Assembly (NCBI GenBank): GCA_945881865.1
Contig: CAMCVK010000015.1
Location: 1-64,000, forward strand
DNA length: 64,000 nucleotides
Direction of reading: 5' to 3'
Source of the DNA: Fimbriimonas ginsengisoli Gsoil 348
GTDB lineage: Bacteria; Armatimonadota; Fimbriimonadia; Fimbriimonadales; Fimbriimonadaceae
Position 1 is the first letter of the stretch. Every line of letters starts with the position of its first letter. The notes under the pieces are model-generated. The model saw only the letters and a list, made by a program, of their open reading frames with translations. It was not told the origin of the DNA and searched no databases. Positions 18,946 to 31,803 of this stretch are shown piece by piece. The position numbers and the translations under genes were made by a program.

Positions 18946-20232
18946 TCAGGATTCAACGCGGAAGGAATTTGCCACCCTTTCGACATTTGGCATGTTCTCA
19001 ACGGCGGTGAGTGCGGCCCGGAAGTCAGATTCTGTGGCAGGGTGCGTCAGGAAGACCATCTCGCCCCGACCTTCCGGCAACGTTTTCATCTCCATTTCGG
19101 CCAACGAAACCCCGTGCTCGCCAAACTCCAGGGCGATGGTGCCCAATACGCGCGGCCGGTCTTGAACGATCAGACGAAGGTAGTTACGGGTTTGCAGCGT
19201 GTCGATCGATTCGGTTTTCGCGCCGATGTCGTAGGGAAGCGCACTGCCCGGGCCACCGGCGGCAAGGTTCCGGCCGACGTCAATGAGGTCGCCGATGACC
19301 GCGCTAGCGGTTGGGTCGCTTCCCGCCCCGCGACCACTAAACATGAGATCGCCGACGAAGTCGCCGTTGAGCCAGAGGGCGTTGTAGACGCCGTGAACGT
19401 TGGCCAGCGGATGCGCCTTAGGTAGCAGAGTTGGATGAACCCGGGCGCGAATGCGATCTGGAGCGACGGCATCCACGATGCCGAGGAGCTTAATGCGGTA
19501 GCCGAGCAGGTCGGAGTAATGCATGTCTGTTCGCGTTACGGCGCGAATTCCTTCCCGGTGGATCGATTCCAAAGGGACCTGTTTGCCAAACGCGATGCTG
19601 GCAAGAATCGAAATCTTGTACATCGTATCGAATCCGTCGACATCGTTCGTGGGGTCGGCTTCGGCGTAGCCAAGCGCCTGGGCCGAGGCGAGCACATCGC
19701 CAAAGTCAGCCCCTTTATCCTGCATCTCCGTCAGGATGTAATTGGTGGTGCCGTTGAGAATGCCCATCATTTTCAGCACCGCGTTTCCCGCGAGTTGATG
19801 CTTGAGTGGCTGCACCAAAGGGATTCCGCCACCCACGGCGGCTTCGTAATGCAGATCCAAGCGGCGGGCCTTTGCCATGTGAACCAACCGCGAGCCTTCC
19901 TTCGCCATCAGCTCTTTGTTCGCGGTGACGACGTTTTTCTGGTTCTGGATGGCGCGCTCGACAAGGGCTCCGGCCGGGTCGGTTCCGCCGATAACCTCGA
20001 TGATCACGTCGATGGTCGGGTCGTCGACGATCGAGCCGAGGTCGGTGGTGAAGAGATCGCTCGGCAATTCGCGGGGTTTTGATCCGTCGCGAACGCCAAT
20101 TTTGACGACCTCAACCGCGAAGCCGACCTTCTTTTCGATCGACTCGCGATTGTCGGCCAGCATTCGGTACACGCCGGAACCGACCGTGCCGAAGCCGAGC
20201 AACCCAATCCTCAAAACGCGCGATGAACTCAC
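18946..20232 (-). CDS. hom: Homoserine dehydrogenase
   Basis: 428 aa from the GTG at 20232, normal length. It reduces aspartate semialdehyde to homoserine in threonine/methionine synthesis. The NAD(P) Rossmann motif GLLGFGTVGSGVY starts at residue ~8. The catalytic part has VVTANKELMAKEG, EAAVGGGIPLV and GILNGTTNYIL with the family Lys and Asp region. The C-terminal ~75 residues form an ACT domain (LIVQDRPRVLGTIA), the usual site of amino-acid feedback control. The frame continues upstream to 20349, but that stretch does not look like Hom and would overlap the promoter of the next gene. Confidence 0.96.
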   Translation of the reverse strand: MSSSRVLRIGLLGFGTVGSGVYRMLADNRESIEKKVGFAVEVVKIGVRDGSKPRELPSDLFTTDLGSIVDDPTIDVIIEVIGGTDPAGALVERAIQNQKNVVTANKELMAKEGSRLVHMAKARRLDLHYEAAVGGGIPLVQPLKHQLAGNAVLKMMGILNGTTNYILTEMQDKGADFGDVLASAQALGYAEADPTNDVDGFDTMYKISILASIAFGKQVPLESIHREGIRAVTRTDMHYSDLLGYRIKLLGIVDAVAPDRIRARVHPTLLPKAHPLANVHGVYNALWLNGDFVGDLMFSGRGAGSDPTASAVIGDLIDVGRNLAAGGPGSALPYDIGAKTESIDTLQTRNYLRLIVQDRPRVLGTIALEFGEHGVSLAEMEMKTLPEGRGEMVFLTHPATESDFRAALTAVENMPNVERVANSFRVES

Positions 20233-20302
20233 GGTGCAAGTTTGGCATGCCTTCGCCGCCTGGTGAGGGGGCGCAGTTTTCTCAACATCCGCTAGGAAGT
20301 GC

Positions 20303-20331
20303 TTGTTATTTTCGGTTCGGTACCGTACATT
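20303..20331 (+). promoter_or_regulatory. Promoter TTGTTA-17-TACATT, leaderless type
   Basis: -35 TTGTTA (20303-20308), 17-nt spacer, -10 TACATT (20326-20331), then 6 nt to the ATG at 20338. Confidence 0.65.
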
Positions 20332-20337
20332 ACCGAT

Positions 20338-22125
20338 ATGATTTCGCATGCTTTACGAAATTGTTTGGCCCTTTGTTTCGCCGTAGTCTTTCTCGCTCCC
20401 GCAATAATTCAAGCCGCGCCGGTGCGAATCGCAACTTCGAACTACACCGTGCCCGGCGAGGTGAACGTCCAGTTTGTGGACGCGGTTACGGTGGACGACG
20501 GGAGCCTGTTTGTGCTGACGTCCGGTCTGGCCCTCAGCCAGCCCCGCCTGCGACTCACCCGCTACAACGTAAACGGCGGCAGGTCTTGGTCTCGAACGAT
20601 CCTGGTTCCTTCCATCCCGGCCGCAAGCGACGAAGCGCTTAAGCCGGCCAGCCTACTCGGGCTTTCTGGCGGCAAGGTGCTTGTGCTTTCCCAGCGCGGA
20701 CCTTCTGTTGAGACGGATGGCGTCGCGGTGGACATTGTTGGCCGAGTGTTTAACTCGGCGGGGAATGTCCTTGCCAATCGGGGAACTGCGCCAATCATTT
20801 ACAACACGAAGGGCATAGAAAGTGACTTTTTCACCGCGCAAGCCACGTAAGACTTTCAGGGAGGCATTTGGGTCTTGGCAAACGGCTTTGCCGTGGGCAA
20901 GTCCGAGGCCGTCGCTCTCGTTCGATTCAACGAGAGTTTCGAACCCCAATTCGTGAGTGAGTTCCTTGGTGGAAACCTAACCGTAGACGGCTCTGGCACT
21001 CTCGTTGAAAAAGCGAAGGGCTTAGGAATCTGCCAAGGGTTCAATTTTGGTGCGTCCATTGCCTACCAATCGGTTACCGTCTCCGATTTCAACTACGCGG
21101 GCACAATTTTTCAAGACTCTAGCAGCACAATTACCGGCCAGAGTTACCGCGACAACACCTACGGGCCGGTGAGTTTCTCCGACACTGAAAGCACTGGTGA
21201 TTTACGCTTTTCCAACCTCATCCCGAGCTTCGATGCGGCTTCGCGAGACCATCAAGCGGCTGCGTTTTTGCCCGTGCGGCCGTTTCAAACTCGTGCGGCT
21301 CTATTCCATCTGAGCTTGCCCTCCCTCAGTGGATACGGAGAACTCCAGCCGATGGTGTATCCCGACCCACCCCAGGTTGAAGCACTTCCAGGTCAACGTT
21401 TCGTGGTGGGCAACTTCATTTCGTTCGGGACGAGCGCGCAAAGGAGATTGATCCTCGGCTACGGCGTCCCCATCCAGGACAATCTGTTCTCGGCAGTAAA
21501 TGCTTTGCTCCTTCCACCGGCTCCCTTGGCGAGCGATTGGCGGTTAGATTCGCTTAGAACCGATGCTGCCGGTAGCACCTACTTGGCCGGAGGGCCGCCC
21601 GTTGGCGGAAAAGAATCCCTCGGGATCCTAGTCCACTTTGATGTCAATATCGGCGAAAGAAAGCTGGGCGTGCTTTGGCAACTCACCAACCCGTCAGGCC
21701 CGTTCAAGGCGAAGCGAATCTTATCGACTACCTTGAACCGGATTTTTGCGGTCGGCGTGAACGATGCGGGGACTATCGGCGTGCAGCTTTTCCAAGAGCC
21801 CACCTACTACCGTGGCATTACCGTCAATGAGCCACTGGCTAATCCGGGTGATACCGGCTACTTTAAGATCGTGCTATCCCGTCCGGCTCCGGCCGGTGGC
21901 TACAAAGTGACCCTCAGTTATCCACGGAATCAACTCTCTGGCATTCCGTCGACCGTCACCGTCGGTGAAGGGGAGAGCTCGTTCGAAGGTACGTACGGCG
22001 TTCTGCCGACGGCTCCGGTGGGAGAAGCAACGATCACGACCCGGGTAGACCGGCTCCACGACACGGTGAATGCCGTCCACACTACAACGGTGACGGTTAC
22101 GAACGATCCGGTCGAGCGACTCTAG
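20338..22125 (+). pseudogene. Array copy 1: secreted paralog interrupted by an in-frame TAA
   Basis: First member of the six-copy array. A signal peptide (MISHALRNCLALCFAVVF...QAAP) is followed by the conserved N-terminal block with APVRIATSNY, FVDAVTVDDGS and LRLTRYNVNG. The frame stops at TAA 20848-20850 after AQAT, then continues in the same frame with DFQGGIWVLANG. Paralogs read GQATLANDGKIW and GQAIVANDRRIW there, so exactly one residue (Leu or Val) is replaced by the stop; TTA to TAA would do it. The rest, including VGGKES, WQLTNPSG, and FQEPTYYRGI, is intact. It is either a young pseudogene, an assembly error or a recoded gene; a TTG at 20875 could restart translation but without a signal peptide. 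Confidence 0.85.
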
Positions 22126-22273
22126 GCTCGCTGTGCGCGAGTTGGCCCGTGCGATGGCTCGGGCCACCCGTATCTTATTCCTCGTGGAAGAGGGCGTGAG
22201 CGTCCTGGGACGGTAGGAAGTTTTTCCTACGCTTTTCAAGGCCTCAATGGAGAACTTGGGGCGAAAGACCTCG

Positions 22274-22279
22274 TAGAAT
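22274..22279 (+). promoter_or_regulatory. -10 box TAGAAT, leaderless type
   Basis: TAGAAT ends 6 nt before the GTG at 22286; no -35 is recognisable. Confidence 0.55.
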
Positions 22280-22285
22280 TTTGGC

Positions 22286-24034
22286 GTGAGATTGTTTGGA
22301 ACTCAGATCGCATTCCTTCTCCTCTTTCTGTGCATTCTTTCCGCGCCCTCCGCTTCTGCCGCGCCGGTTCGAATCGCAACTTCAAACTTCACTGTCTCAA
22401 GCCAGACCAGCGTTGAGTTTGTCGATGCCGTGACGGCGGATGATGGAGCCCTTTTTGTACTAACAGAGGGCCTCCTTGCGGGCCAAAGAAAGCTAACCCT
22501 GATCCGATATAGCGTGGACGGCATCCGGACTTGGTCGAGAACGCTGGATTTCCCCTGGTCGACTTCTTCGAGACCCGTGGCGATGAAGGCGGCGAGCCTC
22601 CTCGCGGTTCCCGGCGGCAAAGTCCTCGTGCTGTCGTCGCGCGGCACACCGATTGATGTTCCCTCTGCGGAAATCGACATGGTGGCGCGCGTTTACAGCC
22701 CCGCCGGAGCGCAACTAGCTGCCCGAGGGATCGCTCCAATTATCAAGAGTACGTATGGAGCCGAATGCAGCGTTTTCGCTGGTCACGCGATCGTGGCCCA
22801 AGACGGTCAGATCTGGGTTTTGGCGAGCGTGAAGGATGGATCCGGCCTTGAGGGGGCGTTCCTGATTCGATTTTCGGCGGGGCTTGACGTTGGCGCCACT
22901 CTGTTCTTGAGGGGGGCCATTGAGGACTTCTTCGGGGAGGAAATCACTACTACCGGGTGGGCGGGAGCGGGGCTTGCACCGAATGTCGGCTCGGGCGTCA
23001 TAGCCACGCTGCGCACGAAGCTTCTTTTTTGGAATGGCTCTTTCGAATCATCGTCCAGCGTCGCTACCTACGCCATCAGCAACGGAGGCGGAACTTCCTT
23101 CTTGAATGACGACGGCGATTCCTTAGATAACGACACACTTTTTCGATTTGGCGAAGGCTTCGACCAAGCGACATCTGGCGCAAATCATCTGACTTCCTTC
23201 GCCCCCGTCAGCCGTAACTCCCTGACCTTCATGGGTTGCGACCTGGGTGTCGACTTCAGCGGGACGGTGCTGGACTTCCAGGCTAACAGCTATGGCACCG
23301 GCCTTGAAATTGAGGCAGTCCCAGGCGGAAAGTTCCTTGTCGCTGGTTATGAACCAACCTTCGGCGGGGGGCACTATTTAGCTTGGGGTGAGCCGAATCT
23401 CTCTTCCTCGGTTCCGTTCGAGCAGGCTGAGACCCTGCTTTTGCCGCTAGTTGGTCCCTCGGGTTGGGTCTTGTCTTCACTCAGAACCGATACCCAAGGA
23501 ACGGGATATCTTGCCGGGGGACCGACGGTTGGTGGAAAAGAGTCGATCGGGATCAGCGTCGACTATGATCCAACGGCAAGTTTCATTAAAGCGGGCATTA
23601 CCTGGCAGCTCACGAACAGTAGCGGTACGTTTTCTGCCAAGCGAATACTTCCGACCGCCCAAAACCGCGTGTTTGCGGTTGGTGTCAATCCGGCGGGCGT
23701 TGTTGGCGTGCAACTGTTCCAGCAGCCGACGTACTACCGCGGCATCACGCTCAGCGCAACCGCGTTGGGAAGAGGCGCGACGGCTTACTACAAGCTGCGT
23801 CTCGCCGCGCCTGCCCCGGCAGGCGGTTATCGGGTGGCGGTGACTGCCTCCTCGAGCCGATTTTCGGGAATTCCGTCGGTCGTCACCGTACCGGAGGGAA
23901 CAACTTTTGTGGAGGGCTCATTCACTGTACGTGCCTCGGCACCGCTCGGAGACACGACGATCACAACCCGAGTTGACAGTCGCTACGACACGGTGAACGC
24001 AATTCACACGGCGACGGCAAACATAAGCGACTAA
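22286..24034 (+). CDS. Array copy 2: secreted paralog
   Basis: 582 aa. A signal peptide covers residues 1-26 (LFGTQIAFLLLFLCIL...ASAAP). The conserved N-terminal block runs ~26-160 with APVRIATSNF, FVDAVTADDGA, MKAASLLAVPGGKVLVLSSR. The variable core is ~170-385 (own motif: FFGEEITTTGWAG, FGEGFDQATSG). The conserved C-terminal block begins with YLAGGPTVGGKES and has FQQPTYYRGI, and the Ig-like domain ends with ITTRVDSRYDTVNAIHTATAN. Exported, function unknown; the N- and C-blocks contain beta-strand repeats with G-VLVL patterns suggesting a propeller. Start GTG set by the TAGAAT box. A 13-bp hairpin follows the gene at 24059. Confidence 0.85.
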   Translation: MRLFGTQIAFLLLFLCILSAPSASAAPVRIATSNFTVSSQTSVEFVDAVTADDGALFVLTEGLLAGQRKLTLIRYSVDGIRTWSRTLDFPWSTSSRPVAMKAASLLAVPGGKVLVLSSRGTPIDVPSAEIDMVARVYSPAGAQLAARGIAPIIKSTYGAECSVFAGHAIVAQDGQIWVLASVKDGSGLEGAFLIRFSAGLDVGATLFLRGAIEDFFGEEITTTGWAGAGLAPNVGSGVIATLRTKLLFWNGSFESSSSVATYAISNGGGTSFLNDDGDSLDNDTLFRFGEGFDQATSGANHLTSFAPVSRNSLTFMGCDLGVDFSGTVLDFQANSYGTGLEIEAVPGGKFLVAGYEPTFGGGHYLAWGEPNLSSSVPFEQAETLLLPLVGPSGWVLSSLRTDTQGTGYLAGGPTVGGKESIGISVDYDPTASFIKAGITWQLTNSSGTFSAKRILPTAQNRVFAVGVNPAGVVGVQLFQQPTYYRGITLSATALGRGATAYYKLRLAAPAPAGGYRVAVTASSSRFSGIPSVVTVPEGTTFVEGSFTVRASAPLGDTTITTRVDSRYDTVNAIHTATANISD

Positions 24035-24058
24035 ACATCCGCCAGGATCGCGGATCTT

Positions 24059-24095
24059 GGGTTGCACCGGCGGTTGCGCGCTGCCGGTGCAACCC
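24059..24095. terminator. 13-bp perfect hairpin downstream of array copy 2
   Basis: GGGTTGCACCGGC (24059-24071) and its exact complement (24083-24095) enclose an 11-nt loop. There is no immediate U-run in either direction, so it could be a Rho-assisted terminator, an RNA-stabilising 3' structure or an inverted-repeat binding site. Confidence 0.5.
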
Positions 24096-24178
24096 GGTGC
24101 CTTCTGGGCTTGGCGTATTTGTCAAGCCGTGATGAATATCTCTTATCACCTACTTGTTTGCACCAGGTAAGGTGATTC

Positions 24179-25927
24179 ATGGCTAAGTATTGGTCGGCAC
24201 TCCTTTGCTCTTTATGTCTCGGCTTAGCGATGCCGAATATCGCTACCGCCGCTCCGGTGCGGATTGCGACCGCGAATTACTCGGTTCCCGGCGAGGTTGA
24301 CGTTCGTTTCGTCGATGCCGTGACGGCGGACGATGGGTCGCTTTACGTGCTTACGTCCGGTCTTGCCCTCAGCCAGCCGCGCCTCCGACTGACTCGATGG
24401 AACGTAAACGGACTTCGAAACTGGTCGAAGACGATCAATGTGCCGTCAATTCCCGTAGGCTCGGCCGGGGCCATGAAGCAGGCGAGCCTATTGGCCCTGC
24501 CTTCCGGGAGCGTGCTTGTTCTGTCGCAACGCAACGCCCCCATCGAAACCCCGCTCGTCACGGTCGACATGGTCGCCCGCATTTTTAATCCGGCCGGAGC
24601 GCAAGTCGCGACCCGGGGTATCGCTCCCATTAACAAGGCCGAATTCACGGATCAGTACAACTTTAGTGACGGTCAAGCCACATTGGCGAACGACGGCAAG
24701 ATTTGGATCTTGACGAACGGATGGTCCGCCGAAAACAATCCACTCACCGGGACTTTGGCGTCGTTCCACATCGTCTGTTTCAATTCCAGCCTAGTGCCGG
24801 AGTACTCATATCTCCGGTATGGCTTTACCGACTTGGTGAATAACGAGAACGAGGTCAAAGGCTTCGGTATCACCCCAATTGGGAGCGCCGGAGTGGCGCT
24901 CGCCTACCAATACATCTCTCGTTTGTTCGGGATTTTCGGAAATCAATCGAGTACGGAGCATGAGCTCCAGCACTTCACAACCGATAGCCGCCCGGTAAGC
25001 CTCCTTAGCCTTTATCTACTAGATACATTTGGCCCTGGATATGCCAGCTTCTTGCCCAGCTATAACCTGGCAACAACCGGCGACAACACGTTGACCTCGG
25101 TCCAGCTGTTCGACTCACCCTTCAACGCCCTGCTGGGAACCGATTCGAGCACCAACACGAGCACGGCAGCCGGCTCGGTTTTTCTGGCCGGTTCCGTCCA
25201 GCGCGTTGTGAGCGGGCCGGTGGCCGAAGGCAAGTTGTTCGTGGTGGGTGGCATTCAGAATCCCAACGAAATCTCGCTATTCTGGGGCGGCAACGCCGGA
25301 AGTCCTGACTTTGCCTTTGACAATGACCACGCCCTCCATTTGCCGGCGGCAACGCCTGCCCAACCCTGGCTACTCGACTCCCTCGCGAGTTCGACGGACG
25401 GCACGGTGTACGTGGCGGGCGGATATCAGACCGGTGGCAAAGAGTCTATTGGCGTCGAACTCAACTACGACTCGACGGCGATTCCGACCGGAATTACGTG
25501 GCAGCTCACGAACGCAAGCGGTTCGTTCGTTCCCAAGCGCCTGCTTCCGACGACCCAGAACCGCGTGTTCGCCGTCGGCGTAAACGCTTCGGGAGTCATC
25601 GGTATGCAACTGTTCCAGCAGCCGACCTATTACCGTGGCATCACGGTTCCGGTCCGAGACATGTCTCCGGGGCAGAGCAATCAATTCAAGATCGTTCTCG
25701 CTCAACCGGCACCGGCTGGCGGATACCGCGTGACGCTCACGTACCCGGCGGGACGCATGTCCGGCGACACGACGGTAATTGTTCCGGAAGGAGAGAAGCG
25801 GGCCTTCGGTAACTTCACGGTTTCGGAGACGGCTACGCTTGGAGAGGCGACCATTACCAGCCGAGTCGACAACCGCTACGACACCGTGAATGCAACGCAC
25901 ACCGCGACCGTCGTCGTCACCTACTGA
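24179..25927 (+). CDS. Array copy 3: secreted paralog
   Basis: 582 aa. Signal peptide 1-24 (KYWSALLCSLCLGLAM...ATAAP), conserved N-block with APVRIATANYSVPGEVDV and LALSQPRLRLTRW, and variable core ~175-385 containing the only array copy with a SSTNTSTAAGSVFLAGS stretch. The C-block has GGYQTGGKES, NASGVIGMQLFQ and PTYYRGI; the Ig-like domain closes with ITSRVDNRYDTVNATHTATV. The ATG has GGTAAGGTGA just before it, which can be read as a ribosome-binding site or as a TAAGGT -10 box 5 nt away; this copy is therefore ambiguous for the leaderless pattern. A hairpin follows at 25942. Confidence 0.86.
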   Translation: MAKYWSALLCSLCLGLAMPNIATAAPVRIATANYSVPGEVDVRFVDAVTADDGSLYVLTSGLALSQPRLRLTRWNVNGLRNWSKTINVPSIPVGSAGAMKQASLLALPSGSVLVLSQRNAPIETPLVTVDMVARIFNPAGAQVATRGIAPINKAEFTDQYNFSDGQATLANDGKIWILTNGWSAENNPLTGTLASFHIVCFNSSLVPEYSYLRYGFTDLVNNENEVKGFGITPIGSAGVALAYQYISRLFGIFGNQSSTEHELQHFTTDSRPVSLLSLYLLDTFGPGYASFLPSYNLATTGDNTLTSVQLFDSPFNALLGTDSSTNTSTAAGSVFLAGSVQRVVSGPVAEGKLFVVGGIQNPNEISLFWGGNAGSPDFAFDNDHALHLPAATPAQPWLLDSLASSTDGTVYVAGGYQTGGKESIGVELNYDSTAIPTGITWQLTNASGSFVPKRLLPTTQNRVFAVGVNASGVIGMQLFQQPTYYRGITVPVRDMSPGQSNQFKIVLAQPAPAGGYRVTLTYPAGRMSGDTTVIVPEGEKRAFGNFTVSETATLGEATITSRVDNRYDTVNATHTATVVVTY

Positions 25928-25941
25928 CCGCCCGTACAACG

Positions 25942-25971
25942 CCACCGCCCAAATATGCGTCCGGGCGGTGG
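25942..25971. terminator. 9-bp hairpin downstream of array copy 3
   Basis: CCACCGCCC (25942-25950) and GGGCGGTGG (25963-25971) form a perfect GC-rich stem with a 12-nt loop, 15 nt after the stop codon. A second pairing, AACGCCA with TGGCGTT (25976-25982), is an alternative. No U-run. Confidence 0.5.
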
Positions 25972-26083
25972 TGTATGGCGTTGATATCCCAAAAGCGAAA
26001 ACTATTCAGGCTTTTTGCTCGCTGATTTTGCTTTCGGATTTTGGGACTGTAAACTCCGGCATCGGTATTCATTGCAGTAAATT

Positions 26084-26130
26084 GTGAAATACCTAAGTTG
26101 CAATAGGTTTATACAAGAGTTGTATTTCAC
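26084..26130. promoter_or_regulatory. Spaced inverted repeat upstream of array copy 4
   Basis: GTGAAATAC (26084-26092) and GTATTTCAC (26122-26130) are exact complements, 29 nt apart, in AT-rich DNA about 100 nt before the start of copy 4. They could be paired operator half-sites or a long hairpin. No counterpart seen in front of the other copies. Confidence 0.35.
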
Positions 26131-26220
26131 GTACCTGAATTGATTGCGTCTCGTGAAAAACCAGGCCATCGTAGCTCGAATTTCCAACCAGAGAGACACC
26201 ATATTGGCCAACCGCAGGTG

Positions 26221-26226
26221 TATAGT
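26221..26226 (+). promoter_or_regulatory. -10 box TATAGT, leaderless type
   Basis: TATAGT ends 6 nt before the ATG at 26233 and decides this start over the upstream in-frame codon at 26140. No -35. Confidence 0.6.
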
Positions 26227-26232
26227 CAACGG

Positions 26233-28008
26233 ATGCGTTCTTGGCGTTCGTATTCCTTTGTCTTCGTCTTGCTTGCCAGCATTCTTGCCGGTCAACCGGC
26301 CGTTGCGGCACCGCTCCGTATCGCGACCTCAAACTACGTTCCTGCCGGTGAAGTAGATATCAAGTTTGTTGACGCGGTTACGGTCGATGATGGCGCGCTT
26401 TACGTTCTCACTTCCGGACTGGCTTTTAGTCAACCGAAGCTGAGACTTACCCGTTACACCGTGAACGGTGTCCGCTCTTGGTCGCGGTCAATCACCGTCC
26501 CGTCGATTCCGATTGAGACGGCGGAGCTGATGAAGCCAGCGAGTCTGCTCGCCCTGGAAGGCGGCCGGGTGCTCGTGTTGTCGCAAAGGGCAGCACCCGT
26601 CGAAACACCAACTGCGACCATTGACATGGTTGCCCGAATTTTTGACGGCGCCGGGACCTTGTCGGCTAACTATGGAATCTCGCCGATGGTTCTTGCCGTG
26701 ATGAGTCTAGAGACGAATCTAACTTCGGGTCAAGCCATCGTTGCGAATGACCGTCGGATCTGGATCGCGGCGGACGGAACCTTGCCAGACGGAAACACCA
26801 CCAGCGTCCTGATCAAATTTGACCGCCACTTAAACAGGGAATCGCTGGTGTATGACGCGGGCAGCGAGACTTTTGACGACATGGGTGACGCCGACGATGC
26901 CACGTTCTCCCGCCAGATTTCGAAGAAGAAGACGATGGGCATGACTTCCAGGGCCAGCCAGGGGGTCGTTATTGCCACGCAAAATTTCTCAACCAATCAG
27001 AGCGATCTTGGCGATTACTCGTCGAGCGAGACGACGATCGTCGATCTCGATAACCGGCTGCGAGAAGGCAGTGCCAACTACGACAGCCAAAACTCCAGCG
27101 ATCTGTGGGACTTCTCATCACACAAAGCCTACGACTTCGAAGTTTCCGGAAGTGAGCGGGTTGTCTCCTATCGAGGATACGACCGCACCCACTACTCGCT
27201 TCTCACGCTCACCTCGGGCCTGGGTTTCGGACTTACGGCCGACTTTGATGACGGCCAGCAGATCGAGCCGCTTGGAAGCGGATTGTTTGTCGTCGGCGGC
27301 TTTGCTCGGTTCGGACTGGCCGGTGAGAAGCGGATGATGTTGGGTTGGGGCGGATCTTTCAACGAAGAGTTTTTCCAGGGCGACAACTCGATGGTGTTGC
27401 CGCTCGCCCCGGACGCGAATCAATGGGTGCTAGGGTCCCTCCAGACCGACTCAACCGGAATGAGCTACCTTGCCGGCGGCCCAACGCTTGGCGGCAAAGA
27501 GTCGATTGGTATCGCGATTGCATGGGACAGCGAGGCCGAAGCGGCGGACCAGGGTGCGACCTGGCAGTTGACGAACTCGACCGGAACTTTTGGCGCGAAA
27601 AGACTGCTGCCAACAATTCAGAACCGAGTTTTTGCCGTGGGCGTGAATGCGGCCGGAGTCATCGGAATGCAGCTATTCCAACAGCCAACGTACTACCGTG
27701 GAATCTCCGTCAGCGAGCCAAAACTGAACCCCGGAGATACCGGCTATCTGAACGTTTCGCTTGCGCAGCCAGCCCCCGCCGACTACGTGGTGTCTCTATC
27801 GGTCCCTCGAAACCGGTTCTCGGGAATGCCGACAAGCATCACCGTTCCGGAAGGGCAAAGGTCGGCGGCGGTGATGTTCACCGTCTTGCCCGGTGCGCCG
27901 CTCGGAGATGCAACGATCACGACCCGAGTGGATCGGGATTGGGACACCGTGAACGCCGTTCACACGGCGACGGTGACCATCACGAACGACCCGATCGAGC
28001 GCCCGTAA
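26233..28008 (+). CDS. Array copy 4: secreted paralog
   Basis: 591 aa from the ATG at 26233. Signal peptide 1-26 (RSWRSYSFVFVLLASILAG...AVAAP), then the N-block with APLRIATSNYVPAGEVDI and LAFSQPKLRLTRYTVNGVRSW. The variable core (~170-395) is unusually rich in Asp and Ser (FDDMGDADDATF, SSSETTIVDLD). The C-block has YLAGGPTLGGKES, TIQNRVFAVGVNAAG and FQQPTYYRGI; the Ig-like part ends with ITTRVDRDWDTVNAVHTATVTITN. Starting at 26140 would place 31 charged residues before the signal peptide, so I reject it. Function unknown. Confidence 0.86.
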   Translation: MRSWRSYSFVFVLLASILAGQPAVAAPLRIATSNYVPAGEVDIKFVDAVTVDDGALYVLTSGLAFSQPKLRLTRYTVNGVRSWSRSITVPSIPIETAELMKPASLLALEGGRVLVLSQRAAPVETPTATIDMVARIFDGAGTLSANYGISPMVLAVMSLETNLTSGQAIVANDRRIWIAADGTLPDGNTTSVLIKFDRHLNRESLVYDAGSETFDDMGDADDATFSRQISKKKTMGMTSRASQGVVIATQNFSTNQSDLGDYSSSETTIVDLDNRLREGSANYDSQNSSDLWDFSSHKAYDFEVSGSERVVSYRGYDRTHYSLLTLTSGLGFGLTADFDDGQQIEPLGSGLFVVGGFARFGLAGEKRMMLGWGGSFNEEFFQGDNSMVLPLAPDANQWVLGSLQTDSTGMSYLAGGPTLGGKESIGIAIAWDSEAEAADQGATWQLTNSTGTFGAKRLLPTIQNRVFAVGVNAAGVIGMQLFQQPTYYRGISVSEPKLNPGDTGYLNVSLAQPAPADYVVSLSVPRNRFSGMPTSITVPEGQRSAAVMFTVLPGAPLGDATITTRVDRDWDTVNAVHTATVTITNDPIERP

Positions 28009-28122
28009 ACACCCTCGGGGGGCGGGTTTCACCACCGTTCTCGTCCCCCGGAAAACGATTCAACTTTTTTGCACGGTTTTGCGTGACACGGGATTACGGC
28101 TCGCAAAGCCCAAAATCGGGGA

Positions 28123-29934
28123 ATGCTTGGGCGCAACGTTGCCATTCTTTTTGCCAGTGTGTTGGTGTTCTTCGGTGCCCTCCCAGAGGTTGCTCTTGCG
28201 GGGCCGCTTCGCCTCGCGATCTCCTATTTCGCGCCGCCCGGAGAAACCGGAATCCGGTTCGTCGACGCTACGACGTTGACGGACGGCAGCCTTTGCGTTC
28301 TCACATACGGTTTGGCGGGTCCGCAATCGCGACTCCGTTTAACCCGCTACGATAACTCTGGTGTCCGGACGTGGTCGCGCACGCTTCAGATCCCTTCGCC
28401 GGTTGAAGAAACCGGCGAAAACCTGAAGCAGGCAAGCCTGCTTGCTTTGCCAAACGGGCGGGTTCTGGTCCTGTCTCAGAGGCCGGGTCCGGCGGACGCT
28501 CCTGGCGTAACGGTGGACGTCGTGGCACGAATCTTCAACTCGTCGGGCGTCATCCTCGCAAACCGTGGTCTGGCCCCGATCGTTTCGATCGCCGACCGGA
28601 TGGGAGTCAACTTCACGAGTGCGCAGGCGGTAGTCGACCGAGACGGCATGATTTGGATCGCTGCGACCGGTCGAGAAATCCAGTTTGAGAAGGCGTCCTC
28701 GGGACAGTTTTGCTTCGATGCGTCGATGGCGTTGCAGGGATTCCGCATGGACTACGGCTGGCTGGACGGCTGGTGGGAGGACTCGTATTTGTTCCTTCAA
28801 GATTCCTTGCTCAAAGGGAATGGCATCGCTCCTGGTCCGAACGGAGGAATTACCGTTGCCTTGAACGGCATCAGCCGCACCTACTACGGGTCGGAAGATA
28901 CGACCTACCTTGACGATTTCGTTCTCTTTTGGGAGTGCAAGTTGAGCGGCGGCCGCATCATTCAAAAGAAATTTGTGGAACGCCCGGCGTACTCCAGCGT
29001 TCGGGGAAACACCATCTACTCTCCGCCCAGTTTTCACAAGGGATTCGATGCGGCTAGCTCGGCCGACGTGAGTCTTTTGACTTTGACTTGCGCCGTTGAA
29101 GAGAGCGTTCCTATGTCCTGCTCATTGGCCATTAACGATAACGGCATCGGGGACGTTCGAAATTGGCAGGCGATGAAAGCATCGGACACGTACGGCTTAG
29201 AGCCGCTACCAAACGGTGATTTCCTGTTCGTGACCCCGCGTGCCGGAACCGAGTCTGGCATCACGCTCGACTGGCGGAGGAGAGTGATTGACCCATCTTC
29301 AACTCCCTCGAACGTACTGGCGTCTTACGGCTCGTTGGTTTTGCCAACCGCTCCGCTCGCCACGCCTTGGATCATCCCCGGCCTGAAAACGGCATCCAAT
29401 GGTGTGGCTTACCTTCCTGGCGGGCCAAGTGTTGGCGGAAAGGAGTCGATTGGAATCTCGGTAGCGAACTACTCTGACAGCGGAACCCAAAAACCGACCG
29501 TTGTTTGGCAACTTATGCAGGGAGTCGGCTCGTTCGGTGCAAAGGAAATTTTGCCGACTTCCGACGGCAAGCTGTTCGCCGTCGGCGTCAATGTTGACGG
29601 CCAGATCGGGATGCAGCTTTTCCAGGAGGCAACCTACTTCCGAGGCATCAGCGTGACGTCTCCGTTTCTTCGCCGTGGCGCAAAAGGCAGCCTCCGCCTG
29701 TTGTTTGCCGAAAGTGCCCCGGCCGGGGGTTACGTCGTTCAGCTGTCTAAGCTCACGGGCCGATTCAACGGAATCCCAACCCGAATCACGATTCCGGAAG
29801 GCAAGAACTTTGCTGAAATTGAGTTTGACGTACTGAGAACCGCTCCGGTTGGACCGATCACGATCTCCGCGCGCGGCGATCTGGCGCACGATTTGATCAA
29901 CCCGGTCCACACGACGACGGTTGAGATCCAGTAA
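28123..29934 (+). CDS. Array copy 5: secreted paralog, second subfamily
   Basis: 603 aa. Signal peptide 1-26 (LGRNVAILFASVLVFFGAL...VALAGP). The N-block is recognisably related but distinct: AGPLRLAISYFAPPGETG, FVDATTLTDGS, and PSPVEETGENLKQASLLALPNGR. The core (~175-400) has FHKGFDAASSADVSLLTLT, nearly shared with copy 6. The C-block has YLPGGPSVGGKES, LPTSDGKLFAVGVN and FQEATYFRGI, and the last domain closes with ITISARGDLAHDLINPVHTTTV. The hexamer 6 nt before the ATG is CAAAAT (28111-28116), a weaker -10. Copies 5 and 6 form a clade of their own within the array. Confidence 0.85.
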   Translation: MLGRNVAILFASVLVFFGALPEVALAGPLRLAISYFAPPGETGIRFVDATTLTDGSLCVLTYGLAGPQSRLRLTRYDNSGVRTWSRTLQIPSPVEETGENLKQASLLALPNGRVLVLSQRPGPADAPGVTVDVVARIFNSSGVILANRGLAPIVSIADRMGVNFTSAQAVVDRDGMIWIAATGREIQFEKASSGQFCFDASMALQGFRMDYGWLDGWWEDSYLFLQDSLLKGNGIAPGPNGGITVALNGISRTYYGSEDTTYLDDFVLFWECKLSGGRIIQKKFVERPAYSSVRGNTIYSPPSFHKGFDAASSADVSLLTLTCAVEESVPMSCSLAINDNGIGDVRNWQAMKASDTYGLEPLPNGDFLFVTPRAGTESGITLDWRRRVIDPSSTPSNVLASYGSLVLPTAPLATPWIIPGLKTASNGVAYLPGGPSVGGKESIGISVANYSDSGTQKPTVVWQLMQGVGSFGAKEILPTSDGKLFAVGVNVDGQIGMQLFQEATYFRGISVTSPFLRRGAKGSLRLLFAESAPAGGYVVQLSKLTGRFNGIPTRITIPEGKNFAEIEFDVLRTAPVGPITISARGDLAHDLINPVHTTTVEIQ

Positions 29935-29973
29935 GGAACTCCAATTGGAAGGGACCGAGTTTCTCGTCCTTTC

Positions 29974-30002
29974 TTGACAAACCTGCCGAAATCGCGTATA
30001 TT
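29974..30002 (+). promoter_or_regulatory. Promoter TTGACA-17-TATATT, leaderless type
   Basis: Consensus -35 TTGACA (29974-29979), 17-nt spacer, -10 TATATT (29997-30002), and only 7 nt to the ATG at 30010. This is the clearest sigma-70-type promoter in the window and predicts an mRNA starting at or within 1-2 nt of the start codon. Confidence 0.85.
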
Positions 30003-30009
30003 CGACTCT

Positions 30010-31803
30010 ATGTGTCTTAAAGCGACTCGCTTATTTTTAGTTCTGTTCTGTTGCGCTTTGTTCTTGCCGGTAAAGGTCGCGTTCGCCGGGCCGGTTCGCT
30101 TAGCGCTGTCGAACTACGCCCCTCCGGGAGAGCGGAACGTTGGATTTATTGACGCCGTCACAACCACCGACGGCGGCTTGGGCGTCCTGACTTCCGGCGA
30201 GGCCGAAGGTCAGCCCCGCCTTCGTCTCACCCGTTACGACGCGAGAGGAATCCGAAATTGGTCGCGAACCATCTTGATTCCTTCCCCGGTCGTGGAGACC
30301 GGCGAGAATCTCCGGCAAGCGAGTTTGCTCGCGACGCACGATGGAAACTTGCTCGTTCTGTCCCAGCGTTCCTCGACTTCTGATGCTCCGGCGGTAACGG
30401 TCGACATCGTCGGAAGAGTGTTCGACCCGATGGGAACCGTTGTCGCGAACCGAGGTCTGGCACCGATTCCGGTAAACCGAGACGGTGTTCAGGTGAACTT
30501 CGAGACGGCCCAGGCGGTTCTCGGCAAGGACGGATTCATCTGGATGACGGCGAACGGCAACGTGACGGAAACAAACGCAGGGGTCTTTGCCTTTTTCTGC
30601 TTTGATCCTCGCTTGAACCTCGAAGCGTTTTCGATGATTTCTGGGCGGATTGAAAAAAACTACGAGTTTTACAGGAGGAGCCTCGGAATCGCGCCGAGTG
30701 CGAAGTCCGGGATCACCATCACCGCCCAGGATACCTACCGGGAATTTTTGGCCGGCAAGATCGTGGTTACGGAAAGCGTCTACGTTTTTAGCGGCTATAA
30801 ATGGGAAACGGAAGTTCTTTACAATGGTCTCGACGAGCGTTTGAAAACATACGAAGTAGAGGGTTCAAGCCCGGGTCCGATGTACTTCTACAAAGGGTTC
30901 GACGCCGCGGTATCGGGAGATCTGAGTCTCTTGACGATTACGAGCATGGATCCCAAGGAACAGGAGCCACGATGGTCGACGTTGGCGGTCCACGACGATA
31001 GCACGTGGATATATCCAAACCTTTTGGATTGGCGGGAATACACGCCGACGAATTCCCACCATGTTGAGCCGTTGCCAGATGGTGGGTTTTTATTCGCAAC
31101 CCCCCTTCGCGACTCTGATGTCCTGATCGAATGGACAAAGCGGATCCCCGCAGAACTGGATGAGAGTGGGCGTGCCATCGCGGCCGTGGCCGAGCTGCGG
31201 TTGCCCGCCAGCCCGAAGGACCCTTGGCTACTTCGGAGTCTTCAGACGTCAGAGGCGGGAACCGGATACCTTGCGGCCGGATCCAGTGTCGATGGCAAAG
31301 AATCCCTGGGGATTTCGATGGCAAAGATCCGGTCGCCGAAAGGCGCGGAGGAAGGCGCGATCGTTTGGCAGCTTGCCCAGACGCCTAAGTCACCTTTCGT
31401 TGCTAAAAAGTTGCTGCCAACCTTGGGTGATAAAGTCTTCGCCGTTGGGGTTAATGCAGAGGGGATCATTGGCATGCAACTGTTCCAGGAACCGGAGTTC
31501 TTCCGGGGGGTGAACGTGCCGATTCAACAGGTTTTCGGCGGAATGGAAACCGTGTTCCGACTGATTCTTAACAAGCCGGCTCCAGACGGTGGCTACCCTG
31601 TGCGTCTCTCGTTCGATTCTAAGCGGTTCCGCGGCATCCCGGCACAGGTCACGATTCCCGCCGGCGAAACCGTCTACGAAGGTGCGTTCGAAGTGTTGCC
31701 GTCGGCCAGATTGGGTCTCAGCACGATAACTGCCCGGGGCGACCTGAAGATCGATAAGGTCACGACCGTTCACACGGCCACCCTCGAAGTGATGTCGAAG
31801 TGA
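30010..31803 (+). CDS. Array copy 6: secreted paralog, second subfamily
   Basis: 597 aa from the ATG at 30010. Signal peptide ~1-27 (CLKATRLFLVLFCCALFL...VAFAGP), then AGPVRLALSNYAPPGERN, FIDAVTTTDGG and PSPVVETGENLRQASLLATHDG. The variable core (~175-400) contains YFYKGFDAAVSGDLSLLTIT, a close relative of copy 5. The C-block has YLAAGSSVDGKES, FAVGVNAEGIIGMQLFQEPEFFRGV and a last domain ending in STITARGDLKIDKVTTVHTATL. An in-frame TTG at 29974 is the -35 hexamer itself, so the longer form is rejected. The esterase gene follows in the same frame after the TGA and seven codons. Confidence 0.87.
   Translation: MCLKATRLFLVLFCCALFLPVKVAFAGPVRLALSNYAPPGERNVGFIDAVTTTDGGLGVLTSGEAEGQPRLRLTRYDARGIRNWSRTILIPSPVVETGENLRQASLLATHDGNLLVLSQRSSTSDAPAVTVDIVGRVFDPMGTVVANRGLAPIPVNRDGVQVNFETAQAVLGKDGFIWMTANGNVTETNAGVFAFFCFDPRLNLEAFSMISGRIEKNYEFYRRSLGIAPSAKSGITITAQDTYREFLAGKIVVTESVYVFSGYKWETEVLYNGLDERLKTYEVEGSSPGPMYFYKGFDAAVSGDLSLLTITSMDPKEQEPRWSTLAVHDDSTWIYPNLLDWREYTPTNSHHVEPLPDGGFLFATPLRDSDVLIEWTKRIPAELDESGRAIAAVAELRLPASPKDPWLLRSLQTSEAGTGYLAAGSSVDGKESLGISMAKIRSPKGAEEGAIVWQLAQTPKSPFVAKKLLPTLGDKVFAVGVNAEGIIGMQLFQEPEFFRGVNVPIQQVFGGMETVFRLILNKPAPDGGYPVRLSFDSKRFRGIPAQVTIPAGETVYEGAFEVLPSARLGLSTITARGDLKIDKVTTVHTATLEVMSK

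Follow-up and report, generated by a model that had tools for sequence, protein, structure and literature searches.

Six genes lie head to tail and in register at positions 20338–31803 of the window, by which we mean the whole 64,000-nucleotide stretch of DNA that was analysed, as an earlier note on this DNA had described. All six are on the forward (+) strand, as are the features located within and before them. Copy c1 (20338..22125) spans 595 codons and has an in-frame TAA at codon 171 (20848–20850) that the earlier note had missed; the frame is otherwise open on either side, and a profile search of the genome likewise counts one TAA in c1, so five array copies are intact. Copy c2 (22286..24034, 582 aa) has a GTG start, c3 (24179..25927) also encodes 582 aa, and c4 (26233..28008, 591 aa) starts at the ATG at 26233, with a longer reading frame from a TTG at 26140 being an unlikely alternative start. 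Copies c5 (28123..29934, 603 aa) and c6 (30010..31803, 597 aa, with its start at the ATG at 30010) complete the array.

The six copies share a signal peptide, a conserved N-block and a conserved C-block with an Ig-like tail, between which lies a divergent core of about 200 residues, in agreement with the earlier description. Read from the sequence, each of the six begins with a hydrophobic N-terminus that ends in A-x-A before AAP or AGP, and the proteins are accordingly predicted to be secreted, as had been proposed; neither a lipobox cysteine nor a C-terminal anchor was seen in the sequences. In c3, the N-block (24248..24652, residues 24–158) probably comprises a closing strand and blades 1–2 of a β-propeller, and the core (24716..25330, residues 180–384) is modeled with low confidence as the late part of blade 3 together with the middle blades. 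The C-block (25331..25633, residues 385–485), with the motifs GGKESIG and RVFAVGVN..GVIGMQLFQ, would supply the last blades, and the C-terminal Ig-like domain follows (25634..25924, residues 486–582).

Most copies had been thought to carry their own leaderless-type promoters, and this holds for four of them. A TAnnnT box is found 6–7 nt before the start codon in c1, c2, c4 and c6: the −10-like boxes TACATT (20326..20331), TAGAAT (22274..22279) and TATAGT (26221..26226) each lie 6 nt before the starts of c1, c2 and c4, respectively, and a near-perfect TTGACA-17-TATATT promoter (29974..30002), which would be of the leaderless type, ends 7 nt before the ATG of c6. In c3 the box coincides in part with an SD-like sequence, and c5 lacks a box. 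Counting c3, boxes 5–9 nt upstream are present in five of six copies versus 0.57 of six expected from shuffles.

The array adjoins a hom gene (18946–20349), and its other neighbors include genes for an esterase-like hydrolase, an FHA protein, glycosyltransferases and a ferritin-like protein. No functional link emerged from these genes, and no neighbors are consistent; nor was a catalytic signature found in the family. In five of the six congeners examined, by contrast, an accB-like gene is found next to hom, and synteny around this gene is not conserved. Because the neighborhood of hom differs among these six congeners, synteny is uninformative on the insertion site.

A paralogous family in one genome

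The genome containing the array (3.23 Mb, 98% complete) encodes a paralogous family of about sixteen members, of which the array is subfamily A. A whole-genome profile search places ten further members outside the array: eight belong to subfamily B (six on contig C4, one on C6 and one on C17), a divergent copy lies on C10, and another lies at C4:198.9k. Subfamilies A and B are each monophyletic in the tree, with a well-supported branch between them, and inside the array the supports are 93/92 for c5/c6 and 96/98 for c1–c4. Both ends show the two subfamilies to be related (hhalign probability of 99.4 for the propeller part), with no similarity detectable by hhalign between their cores. A second tandem array, made up of three subfamily B copies, is located at L013 (G000:C4:156500-165000). 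Three members of subfamily B, b3 (L012:3869-5569), b1 (L011:1260-2945) and b5 (L013:3413-5122), have TTGACA −35 boxes and −10-like boxes near the start codon, as in c6.

Outside this genome, the searches found only the Ig-like domain. No full-length homologue is present in 19 congeners, in which the full-length profile matches only the Ig-like domain (positions about 460–568); the matches to this domain cover profile positions 472–552 with E values down to 1e-11, and c3 residues 486–582 are the only part common to other species of the genus. A profile of the propeller alone was run against 291 genomes of the phylum, with the best five candidates per genome scored, and hit no genome other than the array's own. 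No relative was returned when GTDB 220 was scanned with patterns for A and for B, or IMG/VR with the B pattern, in collections from which the array's own and very near genomes may be absent. The family thus appears to be species-restricted.

Within the genus, the Ig-like domain is itself abundant: larger proteins carry several such domains, some of them behind propeller-like parts. Secreted proteins of this kind, encoded in the array's own genome (C1:431k) and in a congener (G013:C4:442-449k), have the same type of C-terminal Ig-like domain after an N-terminal propeller-like part. They differ from the array proteins in having several Ig domains and, often, 700–2000 aa, and the propeller part of the one representative compared (C1:431k) has no detectable similarity to the array family (hhalign probability 0.2–0.5). 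At the congener locus (L086, G013:C4:442500-449500), two genes in tandem encode ~1070-aa proteins with Ig-like domains, and lineage-specific duplication of such proteins may therefore be common in the genus.

The earlier note did not recognize the family, and database searches bear this out: nothing scores above cut-off in Pfam, NCBIfam or PHROGs, and assignment to a known enzyme or domain family was rejected on this basis. An enzyme family with single copies elsewhere, which had been named as an outcome that would count against the earlier view, was searched for and not found. A profile search against PDB sequences gave chance-level matches only. Pfam Kelch models match c3 alone at a sub-threshold 11.9–15.6 bits versus cut-offs of 20–25, Pfam FG-GAP repeats have no match at E values up to 1, and no sialidase or BNR/Asp-box domain is matched in Pfam or NCBIfam.

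A predicted propeller followed by an Ig-like domain

AlphaFold models were obtained for c3 (m7cf1f5aaaf0c) and c5 (m36763c420641) from an alignment of seven rows that left out paralogues from outside the window. Mean pLDDT is 61.7 for c3 and 56.8 for c5, and most of the core falls below 50 in both. The Ig-like domain is predicted well in both models, and DSSP assigns four-stranded blades in the first ~210–280 residues of each. The match to PDB propellers begins at residue ~24 in both models and runs to residue ~484 in c3 and ~502 in c5. The best reading of these models is that each protein consists of one β-propeller followed by one Ig-like domain. Placement of the core in the middle blades of the propeller is of low confidence, since core pLDDT is below 50. 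The first strand (residues 27–35) probably completes the last blade, in which case the N- and C-blocks would be adjacent in the ring; their adjoining in a closed propeller would explain why both ends are conserved. Profile comparison found no internal blade repeat in the N- and C-blocks.

Three known structures resemble the models. CylK (PDB 7fh6/7roo) is the best structural match of both across the whole propeller, with a Z of 20.9 over 315 aligned residues for c3 (30–482) and 18.0 over 281 for c5 (30–502). CylK, a Friedel-Crafts alkylating enzyme, acts in biosynthesis, and its N-terminal half is different; identity is only 8–14%, and the Ig domain after the propeller is a feature of the array family. 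The integrin α head has the same order as the array family, a propeller and then the (thigh) Ig-like domain, and matches with a Z of ~16 over ~400 residues (c3) and of ~15 (c5), including the Ig domain. Identity is below 10%, there is no FG-GAP match, and the resemblance is one of fold only. The top Foldseek match is the bacterial sialidase of Micromonospora viridifaciens (PDB 1eut/1wcq, E 1e-9), which also has a propeller and then an Ig-like domain, as in the models, but the TM-score is only 0.3 and the array family has no Pfam sialidase/BNR match.

These models also bear on an alternative architecture, in which a small propeller of about five blades is built from just the N- and C-blocks, with the core inserted as a copy-specific domain that this propeller displays. 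The two blocks could give four to five blades, the core is poorly modeled, and the cores of A and B do not align. Both models nevertheless thread the core into the ring comparable with CylK, and the c3 core opens with predicted four-stranded blades (residues 222–283). On balance, we consider this arrangement improbable and favor the single propeller with the core in its middle blades.

Uneven constraint along the protein

Mean pairwise identity in 25-column alignment windows of the array is 0.35–0.67 in the N-block, 0.07–0.25 in the core (taken here as c3 residues ~190–384) and 0.40–0.72 in the C-block and Ig tail. The alignment has no gap intervals in the N-block, 34 in the core and four in the C-block. 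The core changes along its whole length and gains insertions and deletions. Subfamily B has the same pattern, with identities mostly of 0.6–0.8 in the N- and C-blocks and of 0.15–0.3 in the core. The central residues had been called copy-specific; they are divergent but not unrelated, as most core pairs in the array beat shuffles (global Z 2.0–18.4). With Z above 4 in most pairs, exchange of unrelated core cassettes within subfamily A is unlikely. The earlier note had also held that cores sharing one structure and evolving no faster than the ends would speak against it: a shared fold is probable, and the cores do evolve faster than the ends.

Synonymous sites in the array are saturated, with pS of 0.69–0.75 in every region versus 0.72 for shuffled codons, whereas pN rises from 0.32–0.38 in the ends to 0.59 in the core. 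Conserved residues share codons about as often as chance would give, and runs of shared silent codons reach significance in none of the pairs. Since silent sites are saturated, the ends are held by purifying selection at the protein level and not by recent conversion, and gene conversion was rejected as the source of the conserved array ends. The gene-conversion tracts that the earlier note had suggested looking for are thus not detected in the array and likely, from the silent-codon runs, in subfamily B. There, the ends are less diverged than the core at synonymous sites, and runs of identical silent codons of up to 18 sites occur mostly near the 3′ end (lowest p < 0.001, uncorrected for 28 pairs). 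Between b4 and b5, neighbors in the second tandem array, 18 silent codons in a row are identical, which suggests gene conversion.

Only the closest pair, b3/b5, is close enough for ω to be measured. Its ω is 0.10 in the N-block, 0.38 in the core (interval 0.24–0.55), 0.10 in the C-block and 0.28 in the Ig-like domain, with dS similar among regions (overlapping intervals). The core therefore evolves faster than the ends with an ω that never exceeds 1, and no 40-codon window has dN > dS, although pairwise averages could still mask a few positively selected sites.

These values do not establish the proposal of the earlier note that the core diversifies to bind different targets. Under that proposal, selection would act on the core for recognition of polymers, partners or phages that change, and the array would serve as a store of specificities. 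It draws on the conserved scaffold with a changing core in two subfamilies, on the predicted secretion and individual promoters of the proteins, and on the 34 core gap intervals against none in the N-block. Yet ω stays at or below 1 in every 40-codon window of the closest pair, change spans the whole core and not isolated loops, and conversion was not detected in the array. The genome, which is 98% complete, also has no match to reverse transcriptase PF00078, for which control genomes do match, and with this enzyme absent, diversification by a DGR was ruled out. A diversifying repertoire is possible but unlikely, and relaxed constraint, with the core under weak purifying selection, fits the sequences at least as well as diversification driven by ligands. 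A related reading, a species-specific recognition repertoire of some sixteen propellers, each with a fixed docking half and another half diversified for targets, built by duplication and, in the array, with neither retroelement nor conversion, strikes us as doubtful.

Weak selection could also extend to the whole expansion, which would then be drifting to loss. In-frame stops interrupt three of the sixteen members, namely c1, the copy on C17 (TGA and TAA) and that at C4:198.9k (TGA). The remaining thirteen, however, retain open frames of about 560–600 codons, the promoters look intact, and the ends of the closest pair have an ω near 0.1, which makes general decay very unlikely.

A working model and its meaning

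Overall, we favor, with a probability of roughly 0.6, the view that the array consists of tandem duplicates of a lineage-specific family of secreted propeller and Ig-like proteins, putative binders whose ends are constrained and whose middle blades are only weakly so. Each protein would form a seven- or eight-bladed β-propeller followed by one Ig-like domain, with the ring closed by the first strand joining the last blade. The N-block (closing strand and blades 1–2) and the C-block (last blades) would then make up one contiguous side of the ring under purifying selection. On the opposite side, the middle blades would be weakly constrained, and it is for this reason that the copies would differ there. 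The copies arose by repeated duplication and loss, with three of the sixteen members now interrupted, and subfamily B seems to exchange tracts at the 3′ end as well. Most copies would be expressed from their own leaderless promoters, and we infer a role in the extracellular or periplasmic binding of carbohydrates or other polymers, with each copy presenting its own binding face.

The expansion is genuine and unnamed, and the kind of protein is known. It gives the Fimbriimonadia, which are poorly studied, a further protein family that appears to be restricted to one species and in which the pattern of conserved ends and a divergent middle is seen in two subfamilies. Such a pattern of uneven constraint is easily confused with antigenic or ligand-driven variation. 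Should the ring's variable half not bind ligands, the family would clearly exemplify constraint that varies around a closed repeat fold; should it bind them, these proteins would form a natural series of propellers that are half fixed and half variable.
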